Origin: a bacterium
Lineage (GTDB): Bacteria > Campylobacterota > Campylobacteria > Campylobacterales > Sulfurimonadaceae
Assembly (NCBI GenBank): GCA_018824305.1
Contig: JAHJGM010000003.1
Location: 1-49,229 of the forward strand
Length of the DNA: 49,229 nt
Reading direction: 5' to 3'
Positions 13,265-45,969 of the stretch are shown in pieces; position 1 is the stretch's first letter, and each line of letters opens with the position of its first letter. The position numbers and the translations under genes were made by a program. The notes beneath the pieces were generated by a model. The model saw nothing but the letters and a program-made list of their open reading frames with translations, did not search any database and was not told the origin of the DNA.

Positions 13265-15283
13265 ATGATAAAATTTTTTAAAAAAGGTCTCACATTGAAA
13301 TACATCGGATGGGTTCTCGGGCTAGTTTTATCTGCAGTTGTCCTTTTATATATAGTCGCCTTTACGGCATTTGGAAACAACTTGGTAAAACCGCTCCTTG
13401 AATCAAAGTTACAGGAGAATACAAAACTTCCTCTAAAGGTCGATGTATTTAAACTTACAACAAATTATATTGAACTAACTTTATTGTTAAATGAAAAAAA
13501 CAGCTTACATGTAGACGGAAAGTATTCGCTGTTTTCTCAAATCTTCGACATATATTACAGCTGTAAATTTAATGAACTGCAAACACTTTCATCTTTAACA
13601 AAAAAAGAGTTACATGGGAGTTTTCATACCAGCGGGGATGTGAAAGGCAATCCGGAGTTTATGAAGATCGACGGGATGAGCGATGTTGCAAAAAGTGATA
13701 CCTATTACCATATAGAATTGACAAAGTTCGACCCGACTTCCATTATCGCAAAGATCAAACATGCGAGATTGGAAGAGTTTTTGGCACTGATGGGGGAAAA
13801 GAGCTATGCGAGTGCGGGCATTGACCTTGACCTTAATTTCAAAAACATCAAACCTCACCGGCTTGATGGTGATATGACTCTACATGTAGGTGATTCAAAG
13901 ATAGACTATGAACTGATGAAAAAGGAGTTTGGTGTAGGTCTGCCAAAAACAGAGTTCAGCATGGATGCAAAAGCAAGACTCAAAGGTGATGAAGCCCTCT
14001 ACATGTACGAGTTCAAATCCAATCTTGCAAACATCCAATCTAAAGGCATAGTCACGCCTTCTCCATTGGCACTCGATCTCACGTACAATATAAATGTAAA
14101 AGAACTCGCACTTCTGCGTCCTATACTCAAAGCGCCTCTTCGCGGAAAAATAGATATAGAGGGAAATGTCAAAGGGACAAAAGAGAACTTACATGTAAGG
14201 GGTAAAAGCGACATTGCAAGCAGTAAGACAGTTTTTGACGCAGAACTTGCCGACTTCACTCCTAAACAGGTAAATGCAGATATAAAGAATTTGAACCTAT
14301 CCAAATTTTTGTATATGGTCAGTCAGCCTCATTATGCAGATGCCTCTGTAGATGTCAGGATGAATATAAAAGACCTGTCTTCATTAGAGGGCAATGTTGT
14401 AACAGAGATAAAAAAGGGTGTGTTAGATGTAAACTATCTGTCAAAGAGTTATGGATTGAAAGATATGCCCAAAGTAAATTTTAGTGCCAAGACAGATTCG
14501 AAACTTTCAAAAAACAGCATAGATACGGGTATTGCTCTGACGTCAAATCTGATGACGCTCGCAGTGAACAAAGCCAGTTATAACGTAAAGAATCAAAGTA
14601 TAGATACAGACTATAAAATAAAACTGCCCGATCTTGGCAAACTGTTTTTTATCACAAAGAGAGATTTAAAAGGAGCGATGGCAGTAGAGGGAAGATTGCA
14701 AAAAGAGAAGGATCTGGATATCAAAGCCCATACGGATATTTTCGGCGGAAAGGTAGATGCCATTTTGCATAATGATGACTTGAGGGCGGATCTGAGCGAT
14801 GTGCGGACTCTGCCAATATTGGAGATGCTCACTTATCCGCAAATTTTTGATTCATCGCTTGGCGGCAGATTTGAATATAACATTGCAAAAAAATCAGGAA
14901 AGCTCGACGCCAAACTTACCGATGGTCATTTTGTAAATACGCAGATGATAAATCTTGTAAAACAGTACACAAAAACAGATCTTTACAAAGAGAAGTTTTT
15001 AGGTCGCCTAAGTGCCGGGATAGATCAGGAAAACATCGTCGCTTCACTGCATCTCAACTCAAATAATGCCAAGATAGACACGAAAAACCTCAAACTAAAC
15101 TCAAACACGAAACATCTGGAAGCGACTATCAGGGTAGAAGCGAATCAAAATCCTTTGACGCTCATACTCAAGGGCGAAATGTCACATCCGAGAATAACGA
15201 TCGATGCAACCGAACTGATAGAAAAAGAAGCAGGCAAAGCGATCAACAAAGAGATAAACAAGTTCTTAAAAGGATTGTTTTAA
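13265..15283 (+). CDS. AsmA/TamB-like membrane-anchored periplasmic protein
   Basis: A 672-aa protein with one N-terminal membrane anchor (residues about 12-38, YIGWVLGLVLSAVVLLYIVAF) followed by repetitive beta-strand-rich sequence in the AsmA-like style (repeats of KARLKGD, IDIEGNVKGTKENLHVRGKSDI, VDVRMNIKDLSSLEGNVVTEIKKG). The end has the AsmA-like pattern GEMSHPRITIDATELIEKEAG. AsmA-family proteins form long hydrophobic grooves thought to carry phospholipids between membranes; that role is inferred here. Its stop overlaps the stop of the convergent MMPL exporter by four bases. The upstream region contains the divergent grpE promoter. Confidence 0.75.
   Translation: MIKFFKKGLTLKYIGWVLGLVLSAVVLLYIVAFTAFGNNLVKPLLESKLQENTKLPLKVDVFKLTTNYIELTLLLNEKNSLHVDGKYSLFSQIFDIYYSCKFNELQTLSSLTKKELHGSFHTSGDVKGNPEFMKIDGMSDVAKSDTYYHIELTKFDPTSIIAKIKHARLEEFLALMGEKSYASAGIDLDLNFKNIKPHRLDGDMTLHVGDSKIDYELMKKEFGVGLPKTEFSMDAKARLKGDEALYMYEFKSNLANIQSKGIVTPSPLALDLTYNINVKELALLRPILKAPLRGKIDIEGNVKGTKENLHVRGKSDIASSKTVFDAELADFTPKQVNADIKNLNLSKFLYMVSQPHYADASVDVRMNIKDLSSLEGNVVTEIKKGVLDVNYLSKSYGLKDMPKVNFSAKTDSKLSKNSIDTGIALTSNLMTLAVNKASYNVKNQSIDTDYKIKLPDLGKLFFITKRDLKGAMAVEGRLQKEKDLDIKAHTDIFGGKVDAILHNDDLRADLSDVRTLPILEMLTYPQIFDSSLGGRFEYNIAKKSGKLDAKLTDGHFVNTQMINLVKQYTKTDLYKEKFLGRLSAGIDQENIVASLHLNSNNAKIDTKNLKLNSNTKHLEATIRVEANQNPLTLILKGEMSHPRITIDATELIEKEAGKAINKEINKFLKGLF
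14188..14199. repeat. CTTACATGTAAG palindrome (copy in the AsmA-like gene)
   Basis: Perfect 12-bp palindrome. The 10-mer core TTACATGTAA is at 14189-14198, 19300-19309, 32081-32090 and 41117-41126. Confidence 0.75.
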
Positions 15284-40869: not shown

Positions 40870-41694
40870 TTGGATAAAGATTATAAAAACTCTCTAGGTT
40901 TCGGTATCGCCGGAAACTTTGCACTTCATTTAAAACAAGCGGGCGAACTTGAAGACTTTAAAGATATCATCACTGCTGAAGAGGCTGCTCCAAAAGGTGT
41001 ATTTCCTTTTTATATCCCAAACAATAAAACATTTTTAGGCACATATCCACTCTCAAACGATACTATCAAACTTCCCTCAGAAGAGGTAAATGTACAAGCC
41101 GAACCGGAAGTGGTCCTTACATGTAAGCTGACATATAAAGATGGCAAGATAGAGAGTATAACGCCGACTCACTTTGGGGCATACAATGATACTTCACTTA
41201 GAAAGAACGCACCTAAGATCAGTCTGAAAAAAAACTGGGGTTCACAAACCAAAGGGATTAGTTCTCAGCTTATCGAAATAGACAAATTCAGCGAGGGCGG
41301 TGTCATGGATAATTACCGTATCTGCAGTTTCCTGCGCCGTGGCGGAAATGTCTTTAGATATGGCGAAGACGTAGAACTTACGGGATACAGCTATTTTTAT
41401 GAAAAGCTTTTGGAGTGGATCATAAACCAGATAAACACTCAAGAGGATTTCGGACCGCTCGAACCTGTTATGGAGTATATCAAAGAGGCTTCGTATCCTG
41501 AGGAACTACTTATCAGTATCGGTGCTACTCGTTATACGGAGTATGGAGAGGGTACATTTTTGCAAAGCGGCGATGAGGTTATAGTCGCTTTGTATGATGA
41601 CAGAGTTCACTGTAAAAACCCGGTCTTTTCCAAGATAGTCGCAGGCAGTTATGAACATGAAGGTATGAGTGTTCTGGCACAAAAGGTGATCTAA
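40870..41694 (+). CDS. DUF5718 family protein
   Basis: A 274-aa soluble protein, TTG start at 40870 with AAAGGA eight bases upstream. The N-terminus DYKNSLGFGIAGNFALHLKQAGE and KGVFPFYIPN resemble DUF5718, which is distantly like fumarylacetoacetate-hydrolase folds (EPEVVLTCKLTYKDG). No catalytic residues could be set. Its stop shares one base with the start of the SUI1-like gene (TAATG). A CTTACATGTAAG palindrome lies inside it (41116-41127). Confidence 0.7.
   Translation: MDKDYKNSLGFGIAGNFALHLKQAGELEDFKDIITAEEAAPKGVFPFYIPNNKTFLGTYPLSNDTIKLPSEEVNVQAEPEVVLTCKLTYKDGKIESITPTHFGAYNDTSLRKNAPKISLKKNWGSQTKGISSQLIEIDKFSEGGVMDNYRICSFLRRGGNVFRYGEDVELTGYSYFYEKLLEWIINQINTQEDFGPLEPVMEYIKEASYPEELLISIGATRYTEYGEGTFLQSGDEVIVALYDDRVHCKNPVFSKIVAGSYEHEGMSVLAQKVI
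41116..41127. repeat. CTTACATGTAAG palindrome (copy in the DUF5718 gene)
   Basis: Same 12-bp palindrome as 14188-14199. One-mismatch forms of the core are at 13505, 23864, 33151, 33936 and 44088. Confidence 0.75.
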
Positions 41695-42029
41695 TGAGCA
41701 GGGGTAAAAAGTTAGACCTTTTTATTGGTGCCGAGATCGATGAGGGCTGGAATGAGGTCGTTGAGCGCAGAAGTGTCGTAGCAAAAGAGATACTAGAACC
41801 TGCAAAGCATTTTTTGGTATTTAGAAAAGAGAAGCGCAGAGGTAAAGTCGTGACGCTTGTCGGAGAGTTCTGTCTTGAGGAGAGTGCTGCAAATGATGTA
41901 CTGAAAACTTTAAAGAAAAAGCTTGCCTGCGGCGGGACTTATAAAGAGGAATGGATGGAGTTTCAAGGGGAACTTCAGGAGAAACTGAAGTTAAACTTGC
42001 AGGAACTGGGATTTCGATTTAAGAAGTAA
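41694..42029 (+). CDS. SUI1/YciH-like translation initiation factor-type protein
   Basis: A 111-aa protein with the SUI1/eIF1-like core (VFRKEKRRGKVVTLVGEF, LKTLKKKLACGGTYKEE, LNLQELGFRF). Bacterial YciH-type proteins are known to influence initiation fidelity. It overlaps the DUF5718 gene by one base. Its stop codon (42027-42029) is the first three bases of the left 20-bp repeat of the inserted element, so the insertion landed immediately after this gene without changing it. Confidence 0.8.
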   Translation: MSRGKKLDLFIGAEIDEGWNEVVERRSVVAKEILEPAKHFLVFRKEKRRGKVVTLVGEFCLEESAANDVLKTLKKKLACGGTYKEEWMEFQGELQEKLKLNLQELGFRFKK

Positions 42030-42046
42030 ACCCTTCTAATTTTTTT
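42027..42046 (+). repeat. Left direct repeat (att-like) of the inserted element
   Basis: TAAACCCTTCTAA plus T7, identical to 43959-43978. It overlaps the SUI1-like stop codon. The next bases AAGTTAT (42047-42053) have an inverted partner ATAACTT at 42099-42105, and ACTTTG repeats at 42083-42096, possible iteron-like or recombinase-site motifs. Confidence 0.8.
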
Positions 42047-42256
42047 AAGTTATTATCTTTTAAAAATTTATTTCTAAATCAAACTTTGTTACTTTGGTAT
42101 AACTTATGACTCCTTAATTAGGCGTTTATGTGTGTTAAAAGTTTTGAGTTCTGGTATTACTACAGTTTTTTCTTGAATTATTTCTGCATAATGGTACCTT
42201 ATGTTATAATTGCTATAAAAAGTGAAGTTATTTTGATTGTACTTTCTGAAAAAACA

Positions 42257-43357
42257 ATGAACTTGTTTGTCTCTTTAAAAGAATTAGAGTTAGCTGACTT
42301 TTTTCTTATATTCCTTCAAAATTTTCATTTGTATAAAAAGTTAAACTATGTTAACGTTGATATACATATTACGGACGAAAAATTAGAAAACTTCTTAGAT
42401 AAAGTTTTGATGTTATCGACATCTTGGATCGAAGAGAAAACTAATTATAGAATTAATATTTTTAGTATGCTTTCTTTCCAAAATAATCAAATAACTCTTG
42501 TAGTTTCTGATGCAGGTAATGAAATAGTTCATGAAATTTTAAATTTGATGAAAAGCTATGAATTTCAAGATATATCTTCTTTGAAAAATCAGTATGCACG
42601 ACGATTGTATGTATTTCTTTTGTTAAATAAACCACAACATATTAATTTAAATATTGATGAGTTAAAAGAGATTTTTCATCCTCCGACTGATATAATTAAA
42701 TGGACACAGTTTAAAGCAAAAATTTTAGAACCATCCGTTCAAGCAATTAATACTTGTCAAAATATTAATCTATCCTATGAACTAATTAAAGATGGTAGAA
42801 CTATTTCTGGGATTGAATTCAATAGTATCTATCTAGCTAGTGAAGATATTTTTAAAAAAATCAATTCTTCTTCAGTAATTGAATATATTTCAAAAGATTT
42901 TGTAGAACTTCAAAAAGTATCTCAGCTAACTGAAGTAGTAAGTGAACAGACACTCATAGAAAAAGAAAAAGTTGATGGTGCTAAAAAGGTGGTTGAATAT
43001 TTTGATAAACGGCGACAAGAACTTCAACCTAACTTTAGAAGAATAGAATATAAAAATATAGATGCTATTTACCAATTGCGTTTACATTTCAAAGAAACTG
43101 GAAGAACTCCTGAAATGTTTATAGACGCAATTAATTGGTTGTTTTCAGATAGAAAAGAAGCAGAATTTCATCGAGCATATATAATGTCAATTGGTAAGTT
43201 AATTGAGAAGTTCAATACATTGGAACATTTGGCAATATATTCTAAAGAATCTATTAAAATGAGTGAAGAAGCTAAAAGTTGGGCAAATGTATATAAGAAA
43301 CAAGGTCTTGGTGATGAAGAAATTATACAAAAATTGAAAGAAGGTGGTTACTTATAA
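42257..43357 (+). CDS. Rep_3/RepB-like replication initiator protein
   Basis: A 366-aa protein from ATG 42257; the frame opens upstream to 42128, but that extension is hydrophobic and precedes a TATAAT (42205-42210). A TTG at 42233 is another candidate. The middle (about residues 100-190) matches the initiator WH2 domain of Rep_3 plasmid proteins: NQYARRLYVFLL, then KWTQFKAKILEPSVQAINTC and YELIKDGRTISGIEF. The N-terminal half would be the weakly conserved WH1. The C-terminal third (GRTPEMFIDAINWLF, IGKLIEKFNTLE) recalls phage replisome-organiser tails. It suggests a once-autonomous replicon. It overlaps the downstream gene by one base. Confidence 0.75.
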   Translation: MNLFVSLKELELADFFLIFLQNFHLYKKLNYVNVDIHITDEKLENFLDKVLMLSTSWIEEKTNYRINIFSMLSFQNNQITLVVSDAGNEIVHEILNLMKSYEFQDISSLKNQYARRLYVFLLLNKPQHINLNIDELKEIFHPPTDIIKWTQFKAKILEPSVQAINTCQNINLSYELIKDGRTISGIEFNSIYLASEDIFKKINSSSVIEYISKDFVELQKVSQLTEVVSEQTLIEKEKVDGAKKVVEYFDKRRQELQPNFRRIEYKNIDAIYQLRLHFKETGRTPEMFIDAINWLFSDRKEAEFHRAYIMSIGKLIEKFNTLEHLAIYSKESIKMSEEAKSWANVYKKQGLGDEEIIQKLKEGGYL

Positions 43358-43920
43358 TGGATTTAATGAAATCTGTCAAAATTTTAGCTGATGAATATGG
43401 ATTAGATACTGAAGAATATACAATTGAACTTCTTTTAGAGTTACTTGATAAATTTGGATCTTTGAATAATGTTTTGAAAGAAGGACTTAAACCAGAATAC
43501 AAGTTTTTAAAAAAACGTTCTAAAATTATCGCTATGCTTGGTGATAGTTTACTTGATGAGGACTCTCATAAAATAGATAATTTTATAAGCTACTGTCATG
43601 CGTTAAATCATGCAATTAGTACTCAGGCTATTACTATGGCTTACAGTTATGAAGAATTATTAAATAAGCTAAAAATAAAAGAGACAATCTCTAAATGGAA
43701 AGAATCAGAAGAAGAAATAAATGAAACAGACTGGGTTTTAAATAGATTGGGAGGCAAAAACTTTATTAAAACAATTATTTTACAAGAGCCTAATCAGCTT
43801 AGAAAAAATGTTAAGCTTGTTTTTGATCAATATGCAAGAATACCGGTTGAAAAAAGAGCTGATATATCCTTAGAATATAATCCAAATGTATTAAAAGGGC
43901 TATCTTTTCAACGTACATAG
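43357..43920 (+). CDS. Unknown protein encoded with the Rep-like initiator
   Basis: A 187-aa soluble, mostly helical protein (MDLMKSVKILADEYGLDTEEYTIE...). No family was recognised. It begins one base inside the stop of the initiator gene (TAATG), so the two are translationally coupled and probably work together, for example in helicase loading, copy control or maintenance; none of these is shown. It ends 38 bases before the right repeat. Codon use is A+T-rich like the initiator gene. Confidence 0.6.
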   Translation: MDLMKSVKILADEYGLDTEEYTIELLLELLDKFGSLNNVLKEGLKPEYKFLKKRSKIIAMLGDSLLDEDSHKIDNFISYCHALNHAISTQAITMAYSYEELLNKLKIKETISKWKESEEEINETDWVLNRLGGKNFIKTIILQEPNQLRKNVKLVFDQYARIPVEKRADISLEYNPNVLKGLSFQRT

Positions 43921-43953
43921 TTGATTTAGAAATTATTGGTTATTAGAATGGAT

Positions 43954-44325
43954 TTAATTAAACCCTTCTAATTTTTTTTGTAACTTTTTATAAAACAGCT
44001 CGAAGCTCGGTAATTCGAGCTTTGCTTCACGCTGTTTTTCTCCCCACATCGGATTTGGAAAATAACTGTCATTTTTGTATCTTGCCATTACATGTACATG
44101 TACACGCACAAGCATATTCGCAAATGAAGCCATATTGATCTTATCGGGGGAGAAGTAGTCGATCATCTCGACCTCTACGATATCGTAAAGTTCGAAAAGT
44201 TTGAGTCTGAGCTCACGAGGAAGATCGCTTAGCTCTTTGTATTCTACTTGCGTAAATATTTTAAGCCAAGGAATTTCACTTTTTTCACTCTCGATAAAAA
44301 AGTTACTATCCTCGTAGATTTTCAT
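43954..44325 (-). CDS. HIT-family protein
   Basis: A 123-aa histidine-triad protein: VRVHVHVMARY gives the H-x-H-x-H nucleotide-hydrolase/transferase motif followed by FPNPMWGEK. These enzymes cleave adenylated or similar substrates. Its last residue and stop are supplied by the inserted element (…KLEGFN-stop); the reconstructed original end is …KLEGFTS-stop using the left repeat. A 3-base gap separates it from the upstream helicase gene on the same strand. Confidence 0.88.
   Translation of the reverse strand: MKIYEDSNFFIESEKSEIPWLKIFTQVEYKELSDLPRELRLKLFELYDIVEVEMIDYFSPDKINMASFANMLVRVHVHVMARYKNDSYFPNPMWGEKQREAKLELPSFELFYKKLQKKLEGFN
43959..43978 (+). repeat. Right direct repeat (att-like) at the HIT gene 3' end
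   Basis: Identical to 42027-42046. On the minus strand it encodes the K-L-E-G-F portion of the HIT protein's last residues, so the repeat restores the gene after insertion. Confidence 0.8.
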
Positions 44326-44328
44326 AGC

Positions 44329-45969
44329 TTACGCTCTTGGTCCGCGATTTCTGTCACCTGATGGACGTCTGTCGCCTGAAGGACGGTCACCACGAGGTCT
44401 ATCACCTGAAGGACGGTCACCGCGAGGTGCTCTGTCACTGCTTGGACGTGGAGCTCTTTCTCCGCCTGAACGCTCACCGCCACCATTTCTGTCTCTGTCA
44501 GAACGATTTCTATCGCCGCCTGAACGGTTTCCTCTGAATCCGCCACGACGATTTCCGCCGCCACGATTTCCTGCACCACGACTTTCACCGCGGTTATTGA
44601 TTCTTGCTAGGATACCTTCAAGTCTATCAGCAGGGATACCGATGTTGTTAGGACCTTGGATAGTTTGTTTTTCTAAAAGCATAGATATCATTTTAAACAA
44701 CATTGTCTCTTCATCGATATCTTGTTTGAGTTGATCAAGAATCACGTGTGCTTCATCATAGATTTTTTGCTCTTCAATAGAAGCAACAAGAGTAGCAATA
44801 CTTGATGTTTTCATATCACTTTTACTTGGGACGTAAGCATGAGCCATAGTCGTACCGACTTTAGCTTTGATACGTTGAAGCTCTTTGAACTCTAAGGGAG
44901 TTAGAAGTGTGATAGCTTTTCCGACTTTACCTGCACGTCCAGTTCTACCGATACGGTGAACATAGCTTTCAGGATCAAACGGGATATGGTAGTTAAATAC
45001 GTGAGTGATATCATTTACGTGGATACCACGAGCTGCAACGTCAGTTGCAACTAAAACTTGTACGCTACCTGCTTTTACAGCTTTAATAACTGTCTCACGT
45101 TGGCGTTGTTCCATATCTCCATGAAGACCGTTAGCGATGAATCCAGCAGCTGAAAGTACATTTGCAAGACGATCAACTTCACGTTTTGTACGACAAAACA
45201 CGATCGCTTTATCCATATCTTCTGATTCCATAAGACGGATGATCGCAGCATCACGCTCACTCTCTTCGATAACATAGTACTCTTGTGTAATATCTTTGTT
45301 TGTAGTCTCACCTTTTGTGATCGATACAAACGCAGGATTGTGTAAAATACGTTCAGCTAGGATTTTGATCGGAGCCGGCATCGTTGCTGAGAATAGAAGC
45401 GTTTGGCGACTTGTCGGAAGATATGTGAATATCTCATTGATATCATCCAAAAATCCCATATCCAGCATCTCATCAGCTTCGTCAAGTACAACTATTTTAG
45501 GTGCGAAGTTGTTTAGCATATTACGTTTTAAAAGGTCAAGTAAACGACCCGGTGTTGCAACAACGACTTGCGCACCGCGTTTGATAAGGTCAAGCTGACG
45601 GTTGTAAGAACTACCGCCGAATATTGTTACTGTATTGATACCTAAGTTACGTCCGTATTTGAAAAGTTCGTCACTTACTTGAGTAGCAAGTTCACGTGTC
45701 GGAGTGATAACAAGTACTTCTACACCTGATTTCATATCCATTGAGTTAAGGGCCGGTAGGCCGAATGCTGCAGTTTTACCTGTACCAGTATGCGCTTGAC
45801 CTACGATGTCACGACCTTGCATAACTAACGGTATAGCTTCTGCTTGGATCGGGCTAGGTATTTTAAATCCGGCATAATCGATAGCTTTAAGCAGATCTTT
45901 TTTGAAGCCAAAGTCTTCAAACGTCATTTGTTTTACTTCAGTTGCCTGAATCTGTGTTTCTTCTTGCAT
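44329..45969 (-). CDS. DEAD-box RNA helicase with Arg/Gly-rich tail
   Basis: A 546-aa helicase. Q-motif FGFKKDLLKAI, motif I AHTGTGKTA, PTREL, motif II VLDEADEMLD, SAT, and motif VI HRIGRTGR. Residues about 470-546 are an Arg/Gly/Asp tail with tandem SGDRPxGDRP repeats, as in DeaD/CsdA-like or RhlE-type cold-shock helicases, which bind structured RNA. The frame opens to a TTG at 45999, but ATG at 45969 matches the Q-motif spacing. Function: ribosome assembly or mRNA unwinding at low temperature. Confidence 0.95.
   Translation of the reverse strand: MQEETQIQATEVKQMTFEDFGFKKDLLKAIDYAGFKIPSPIQAEAIPLVMQGRDIVGQAHTGTGKTAAFGLPALNSMDMKSGVEVLVITPTRELATQVSDELFKYGRNLGINTVTIFGGSSYNRQLDLIKRGAQVVVATPGRLLDLLKRNMLNNFAPKIVVLDEADEMLDMGFLDDINEIFTYLPTSRQTLLFSATMPAPIKILAERILHNPAFVSITKGETTNKDITQEYYVIEESERDAAIIRLMESEDMDKAIVFCRTKREVDRLANVLSAAGFIANGLHGDMEQRQRETVIKAVKAGSVQVLVATDVAARGIHVNDITHVFNYHIPFDPESYVHRIGRTGRAGKVGKAITLLTPLEFKELQRIKAKVGTTMAHAYVPSKSDMKTSSIATLVASIEEQKIYDEAHVILDQLKQDIDEETMLFKMISMLLEKQTIQGPNNIGIPADRLEGILARINNRGESRGAGNRGGGNRRGGFRGNRSGGDRNRSDRDRNGGGERSGGERAPRPSSDRAPRGDRPSGDRPRGDRPSGDRRPSGDRNRGPRA
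44337..44470. repeat. Tandem repeats in the 3' end of the DEAD-box gene
   Basis: Short direct repeats of about 18-36 bases (tcacc-acgaggtct / tcacctgaaggacgg units) encode alternating GDRP and SGDR. They make that segment prone to slippage but are clearly coding. Confidence 0.7.

Follow-up and report, generated by a model that had tools for sequence, protein, structure and literature searches.

The window, by which we mean the whole stretch of 49,229 nucleotides of Sulfurimonadaceae DNA that we analysed, contains a discrete and precise insertion of 1,932 bp that has no integrase of its own. It carries a gene for a Rep_3-type initiator, a gene for a partner of 187 aa, and nothing else. We believe, with moderate confidence, that the insertion is a modular replication initiator with a translationally coupled helical cofactor, that it is mobile or was formerly so, and that it would act in replication by recruiting the helicase. 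What is new here compared with an earlier sequence-only reading of the same DNA is an extra C-terminal domain in the initiator, a modular family of such genes in Sulfurimonadaceae, and copies of the family at the chromosomal origin.

A precise insertion between a SUI1 gene and a HIT gene

At each border of the segment is the exact 20-bp direct repeat TAAACCCTTCTAATTTTTTT, with the left (attL-like) copy at 42027-42046 and the right (attR-like) copy at 43959-43978. It is the sole repeated 20-mer across the window. The sequence-only reading had proposed that exact repeats bound an A+T-rich segment of 1.9 kb and had raised the case of a repeat that is common in the genome. The repeat is indeed exact, the insert has a GC content of 26.8% vs 41.8% in the flanks, and the 2.41-Mb draft genome has no further copy even at up to two mismatches. 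The 14-base core of the repeat has exact matches at these two positions only, and a few one-mismatch matches are scattered over the genome. Neither the ORF list nor the family searches gave an integrase, transposase or other recombinase among the two genes of the insert.

We call the segment an insertion because its flanks adjoin in three congeneric species and the borders defined by these empty sites agree with the borders defined by the repeats. Over 348 bp the window's flanks, once joined, align without gaps, at 89% identity to G013, 86% to G019 and 79% to G017; the sequence-only reading had pointed to strains with an empty site as the comparison to make, and these are such strains.

The left flanking gene (41694-42029, forward strand) is an intact member of the SUI1 family (Pfam SUI1, 5e-11), and the left repeat opens with its three-base stop codon. 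The right flanking gene (43954-44325, reverse strand) belongs to the HIT family (Pfam HIT, 1e-4), and the right repeat lies within its 3' end. When the flanks are joined, the two genes overlap tail to tail, and it is this overlap that served as the target, as expected from the earlier suggestion that the 3' end of a gene was used as the insertion site. Classical integrases target gene ends and leave the genes complete. Here both genes retain a stop codon after the insertion. The right repeat had been thought to restore the end of the HIT gene, which is correct as far as ...LEGF, but the element supplies the last residue, N, and the stop codon, TAA; the protein ends in ...KKLEGFN with the insert and in ...KKLEGFTS in the joined flanks.

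A convergent SUI1/HIT overlap of several bases, as seen in the empty-site species, is an unusually tight target. In a further genome, G018, a block of about 5.4 kb (L111, 921-6258) lies between SUI1 and HIT and by eye holds acyltransferase-like and transporter genes. We considered whether it is the same element and rejected this, as it has no matching flanking repeat. The neighbouring DEAD-box helicase gene (window 44340-44600) has at its end a low-complexity repeat tail of the RGD/RPSGDR type, which varies among congeners (compare L111).

Slightly further in, the two ends of the insert carry an inverted repeat of 13 bp, with the left copy ATTTCTAAATCAA at 42070-42082, 23 bp inside the left direct repeat, and the right copy TTGATTTAGAAAT at 43921-43933, 25 bp inside the right one. 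An inverted match of 13 bp between the ends was reached in 22 of 20,000 shuffles of both ends. In a circle these repeats would flank the 20-bp core (fold z -3.0). Two other readings of these sequences were tried and dropped. The 20-bp repeat folds no better than its shuffles, which does not fit an intrinsic terminator, and the inverted repeats around the core, which we considered as attC-like because the genome has an integron integrase, show the GTT...AAC order in reverse of attC (by reading only).

The initiator and its partner

The mechanical ORF of the initiator spans 42128-43357 on the forward strand, and we place the gene itself at 42233-43357. A probable promoter, TATGTTATAATTGCT with a -10-like TATAAT, is found at 42200-42214 on the same strand and is identical in the nearest relative, G192. 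Because this conserved promoter-like sequence falls inside the mechanical ORF, translation probably starts at TTG 42233 or ATG 42257, and the first ~35 codons of the ORF are probably not coding.

Both winged-helix domains (WH1 and WH2) by which a Rep_3 protein is recognised are present, at about 42380-42823 on the forward strand. The match to Pfam Rep3_C (1e-12) is above the cut-off and that to Rep3_N (0.02) is below it. The protein also has a RepM-type match (2e-13), and among PHROGs it matches Rep_3-type ones only.

Behind the winged helices is a conserved, all-helical C-terminal domain of ~130 residues (residues 275-409; 42950-43354, forward strand). At least 17 other genomes have this domain, mostly at 50-62% identity, while the rest of the protein differs. 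A Foldseek search with the model of the domain gave no PDB fold match. The viral matches include phage entries annotated as HTH or as Replication initiator A, several of the best having probabilities of 0.8-0.97, and their E-values are weak at 0.2-1; entries annotated as "Phage conserved hypothetical protein C-terminal domain" rank lower. In L071, a divergent member that is homologous to the window initiator (E 3e-13), the C-terminal domain matches phrog_2514, a DnaD-like helicase loader, at 3e-5 and phrog_4880, a replisome organizer, at 0.004. Together, the model and these profile matches weakly suggest that the domain is distantly like the C-termini of phage replisome organisers and DnaD-like helicase loaders. 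Since the Foldseek E-values are weak, we take this likeness as support and not as proof.

The partner gene (43357-43920, forward strand) overlaps the initiator by 1 nt (TAATG). Its 187-aa product is predicted to be all-helical (pLDDT 79), has no family or structure match in the databases searched, and is not a recognisable AAA+ loader. Between the window and G192, differences at the three codon positions are 0.16/0.07/0.44 in the C-terminal domain of the initiator and 0.29/0.18/0.49 in the partner. Both genes are intact and under constraint.

The nearest architectural parallel is the Rep_3/OrfX backbone of Acinetobacter, which also consists of a Rep_3 initiator and a short overlapping downstream gene, is bounded by recombination sites and needs no integrase of its own (PMC13141974). 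The two also differ. The Acinetobacter backbones have iterons and pdif sites, both absent here, and the window element is chromosomal; RepM lacks the extra C-terminal domain of the window initiator; and OrfX is an HTH protein that is unrelated to the 187-aa partner. We tried the partner as an OrfX homologue and gave this up, with a BLASTP E-value of only 2.3 against an Acinetobacter protein at the OrfX position and no plasmid match. Phage replisome organisers and DnaD-like loaders (PHROG 2514, 4880 and 6493) share another layout with the element, namely a protein with a DNA-binding N-terminus and a helical C-terminal domain and, downstream of its gene, another replication gene, and the family members L070 and L071 match their PHROGs. 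The window protein, in contrast, matches only Rep_3-type PHROGs, its partner cannot be recognised as an AAA+ loader, and there are no phage genes around it.

Relatives and their chromosomal positions

Judged by comparison of the proteins, the C-terminal domain and the partner define a small family that is confined to Sulfurimonadaceae and has modular N-termini. The partner is found in 21 of 228 Sulfurimonadaceae genomes and the initiator in 27 of 228, a count that includes some ordinary Rep_3 plasmid-type initiators. In the genus g16 there is exactly one copy in each of 18 genomes out of 135. Across 399 genomes of the order we found no matches outside Sulfurimonadaceae. Where the two genes are paired they are always adjacent, and the overlap is mostly 1-14 nt. 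A full Rep_3 N-terminus is present in the window protein and in L053, L058 and L069, where Rep3_N is above the cut-off. L064 has a WH1-like half of the Rep_3 N-terminus above the cut-off and L061 has a weak one. The N-terminus of L063 is of the Xre HTH_3 type, with similar ones by eye in L055, L059 and L060, and that of L070 is of the phage DnaD-like helicase-loader type (phrog_6493, 9e-18).

Some members have unusual surroundings. In G183 (L062, 2178-3296) the partner is found beside dnaG, downstream of an ORF that by eye is an HTH/WYL-like regulator, and without a recognised initiator; on a different contig of this genome (L047), a Rep_3-like stretch adjoins dnaA. The G192 insert has an extra ORF of 137 aa upstream of the initiator (L053 reverse-complemented, 13851-14264), which matches no known NCBIfam family.

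The family sits at six or more chromosomal places; we named the neighbour genes by reading protein starts, except for dnaA and ruvC (tblastn) and for rplU, rpmA and hypA (compared). One of these places is the dnaA-ruvC neighbourhood (L055, L058 and L063, with L059 and L060 near dnaA and L057 beside ruvC) and another is an RND-pump locus (L061 and L064-L068). Other copies are at mog (L054, L056), at uvrC (L069), at dnaG (L062, partner only) and between rplU and hypA (L053, in G192). The gap between ruvC and dnaA, about 110-230 bp in many related genomes, is oriC1 in Epsilonproteobacteria (PMC5043019), and a module between these two genes is therefore inserted in or next to oriC1. In G167 (L058, 2586-3133) there is also what appears by eye to be a RelE-type toxin-antitoxin-like pair between dnaA and the initiator pair, and the oriC1 gap of this genome thus houses two kinds of module.

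We considered whether the origin had relocated to the module in the complete genome G217 and rejected this. The coarsely sampled GC skew reaches its minimum at dnaA (1.34 Mb), whereas the module is at 1.91 Mb and is thus not the main origin in this genome. This sets it apart from the cyanobacteria that have lost dnaA and use integrated plasmid origins (PMC7198777), with which it otherwise shares the presence of plasmid-type initiation functions in a chromosome.

In G192 the module lies between rplU and hypA, a second insertion in the same clade; in most of the other Sulfurimonas in which we saw both genes, these are only 80-180 bp from each other. The copy in the window and the one in G192 group as sisters (99/100) although their sites are unrelated and the genera differ, which suggests movement. 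Direct repeats at the G192 insert, if any are left, are shorter than 12 bp. A search for the pair with flanking repeats elsewhere in Campylobacterota had been suggested; we found the pair in other Sulfurimonadaceae, but flanking direct repeats are not visible at the other copies. As most relatives are at stable chromosomal positions without such repeats, the window insertion is the only direct evidence of mobility.

Alternative explanations and proposed role

Integration most likely relied either on a recombinase provided in trans or on recombination at short stretches of identity. The former is a candidate because the genome encodes XerC-like and XerD-like proteins outside the insert, as well as an integron integrase (TIGR02249, 413 bits; L187, 146-1105, on contig G000:C4, at a contig end). 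The sequence-only reading had suggested host Xer, and the element could in that case be an Xer-exploiting element (IMEX) or a dif-module type Rep_3 backbone that was integrated by XerC/XerD. The lack of an integrase and the two host genes fit this; XerC/XerD are likewise reported for Sulfurimonas denitrificans (PMC5357621), and pdif sites bound the Acinetobacter backbones (PMC13141974). However, the reconstructed attP and attB differ from dif at 11/28 and 13/28 positions, 62% and 84% of shuffles are as good, and neither has dif-like arms beyond chance. The empty-site sequence is also not conserved between species, unlike a dif site. For these reasons we consider integration by Xer very improbable. 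IMEX such as TLC-phi and CTX-phi, which also integrate without an integrase of their own (PMC5357621), use dif through Xer, whereas the window site is not dif-like. One difH half-site matches attP with one mismatch (3% of shuffles), which we took as chance among ten tests. Transposition, with the 20-bp repeat as the target-site duplication, would account for an exact repeat at both borders and a single copy in the empty sites. We find it scarcely credible, as terminal inverted repeats are lacking at the extreme ends, the insert encodes no transposase, and a target-site duplication of 20 bp would be a long one.

A different question is what the element is. The sequence-only reading had proposed a live mini-replicon or satellite, in which a 1.9-kb circle excises, replicates by its own Rep_3 initiator and reintegrates with the recombinase of a helper. 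The clean att-like repeats, the unique site and the empty sites agree with this, as do the nearly symmetric inverted repeats that would flank the core in a circle and the tyrosine recombinases encoded in the genome. An iteron search upstream of the initiator had been suggested; there is no repeated 9-mer or longer in 42047-42245 and short repeats are at or below the shuffled level, although an origin may be located inside a gene. No relatives of the partner were found on 72,556 plasmids and none of the initiator on 50,697 phages, and neither gene was matched in IMG/VR. Among the 228 family genomes we saw no free copy, and the matches are chromosomal where the context is visible. Because there are no iterons and no extrachromosomal relative was found, the evidence argues against a self-sufficient mini-plasmid, and we regard a live replicon as rather unlikely. 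An alternative that deserves serious weight, even if we doubt it, is that nothing here is mobile: the pair would be a chromosomal one, domesticated in some Sulfurimonas and relocated by ordinary recombination of foreign DNA, with the repeat as microhomology. The single copies in g16 at shared loci (ruvC-dnaA and the RND pump) speak for this, as does the lack of visible direct repeats around any other copy. Against it, an exact 20-bp repeat at independently defined borders exceeds the usual microhomology, the insert holds the pair alone, and the closest kin, in the window and G192, share neither locus nor genus. The pair could also be a regulator or a defence or toxin-antitoxin-like system that has borrowed a Rep_3 DNA-binding domain. 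Xre regulators do occur among the N-termini, the partner has no known family, and in L062 it stands beside dnaG without a recognised initiator. We judge this improbable, since PADLOC matches are weak and inconsistent (E 0.001-0.006, to different models) and both the N-termini and the C-terminus point to replication initiators.

Under the reading that we prefer, a mobile or formerly mobile initiator with its cofactor, the Rep_3 part would bind an origin-like site and open the DNA there. The C-terminal domain and the partner would then bring in the replicative helicase or primosome of the host, much as phage replisome organisers of the lambda O/P or DnaD-like kind do. The module would move among chromosomal sites in Sulfurimonadaceae and exchange its DNA-binding domain as it does so, and here it would have entered at the 20-bp site in the SUI1/HIT overlap, leaving both genes with stop codons. 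A bolder version, which we put forward only as a speculation with rather little confidence, is that the whole family, previously undescribed, consists of mobile initiator and helicase-recruiting modules with exchangeable origin-binding domains and no integrase, repeatedly captured at or beside oriC1 and other replication genes, where they would join or hijack the replication of the Sulfurimonas chromosome.

Pfam DciA gives weak and scattered matches in Sulfurimonadaceae, where it is barely recognisable, and one of them is in a pair-bearing genome (G139). We dropped the idea that the pair replaces DciA, as these matches support no inverse relation. With DciA so hard to recognise in the family, the pair is a concrete candidate for helicase recruitment. 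The element also raises the question of what inserts DNA that lacks its own recombinase. If our reading is true, the smallest insertable unit of replication initiation would consist of two genes and have an origin-binding part that can be swapped, and the copies at oriC1 would be an example from nature of a bacterial origin with a foreign initiator built in.
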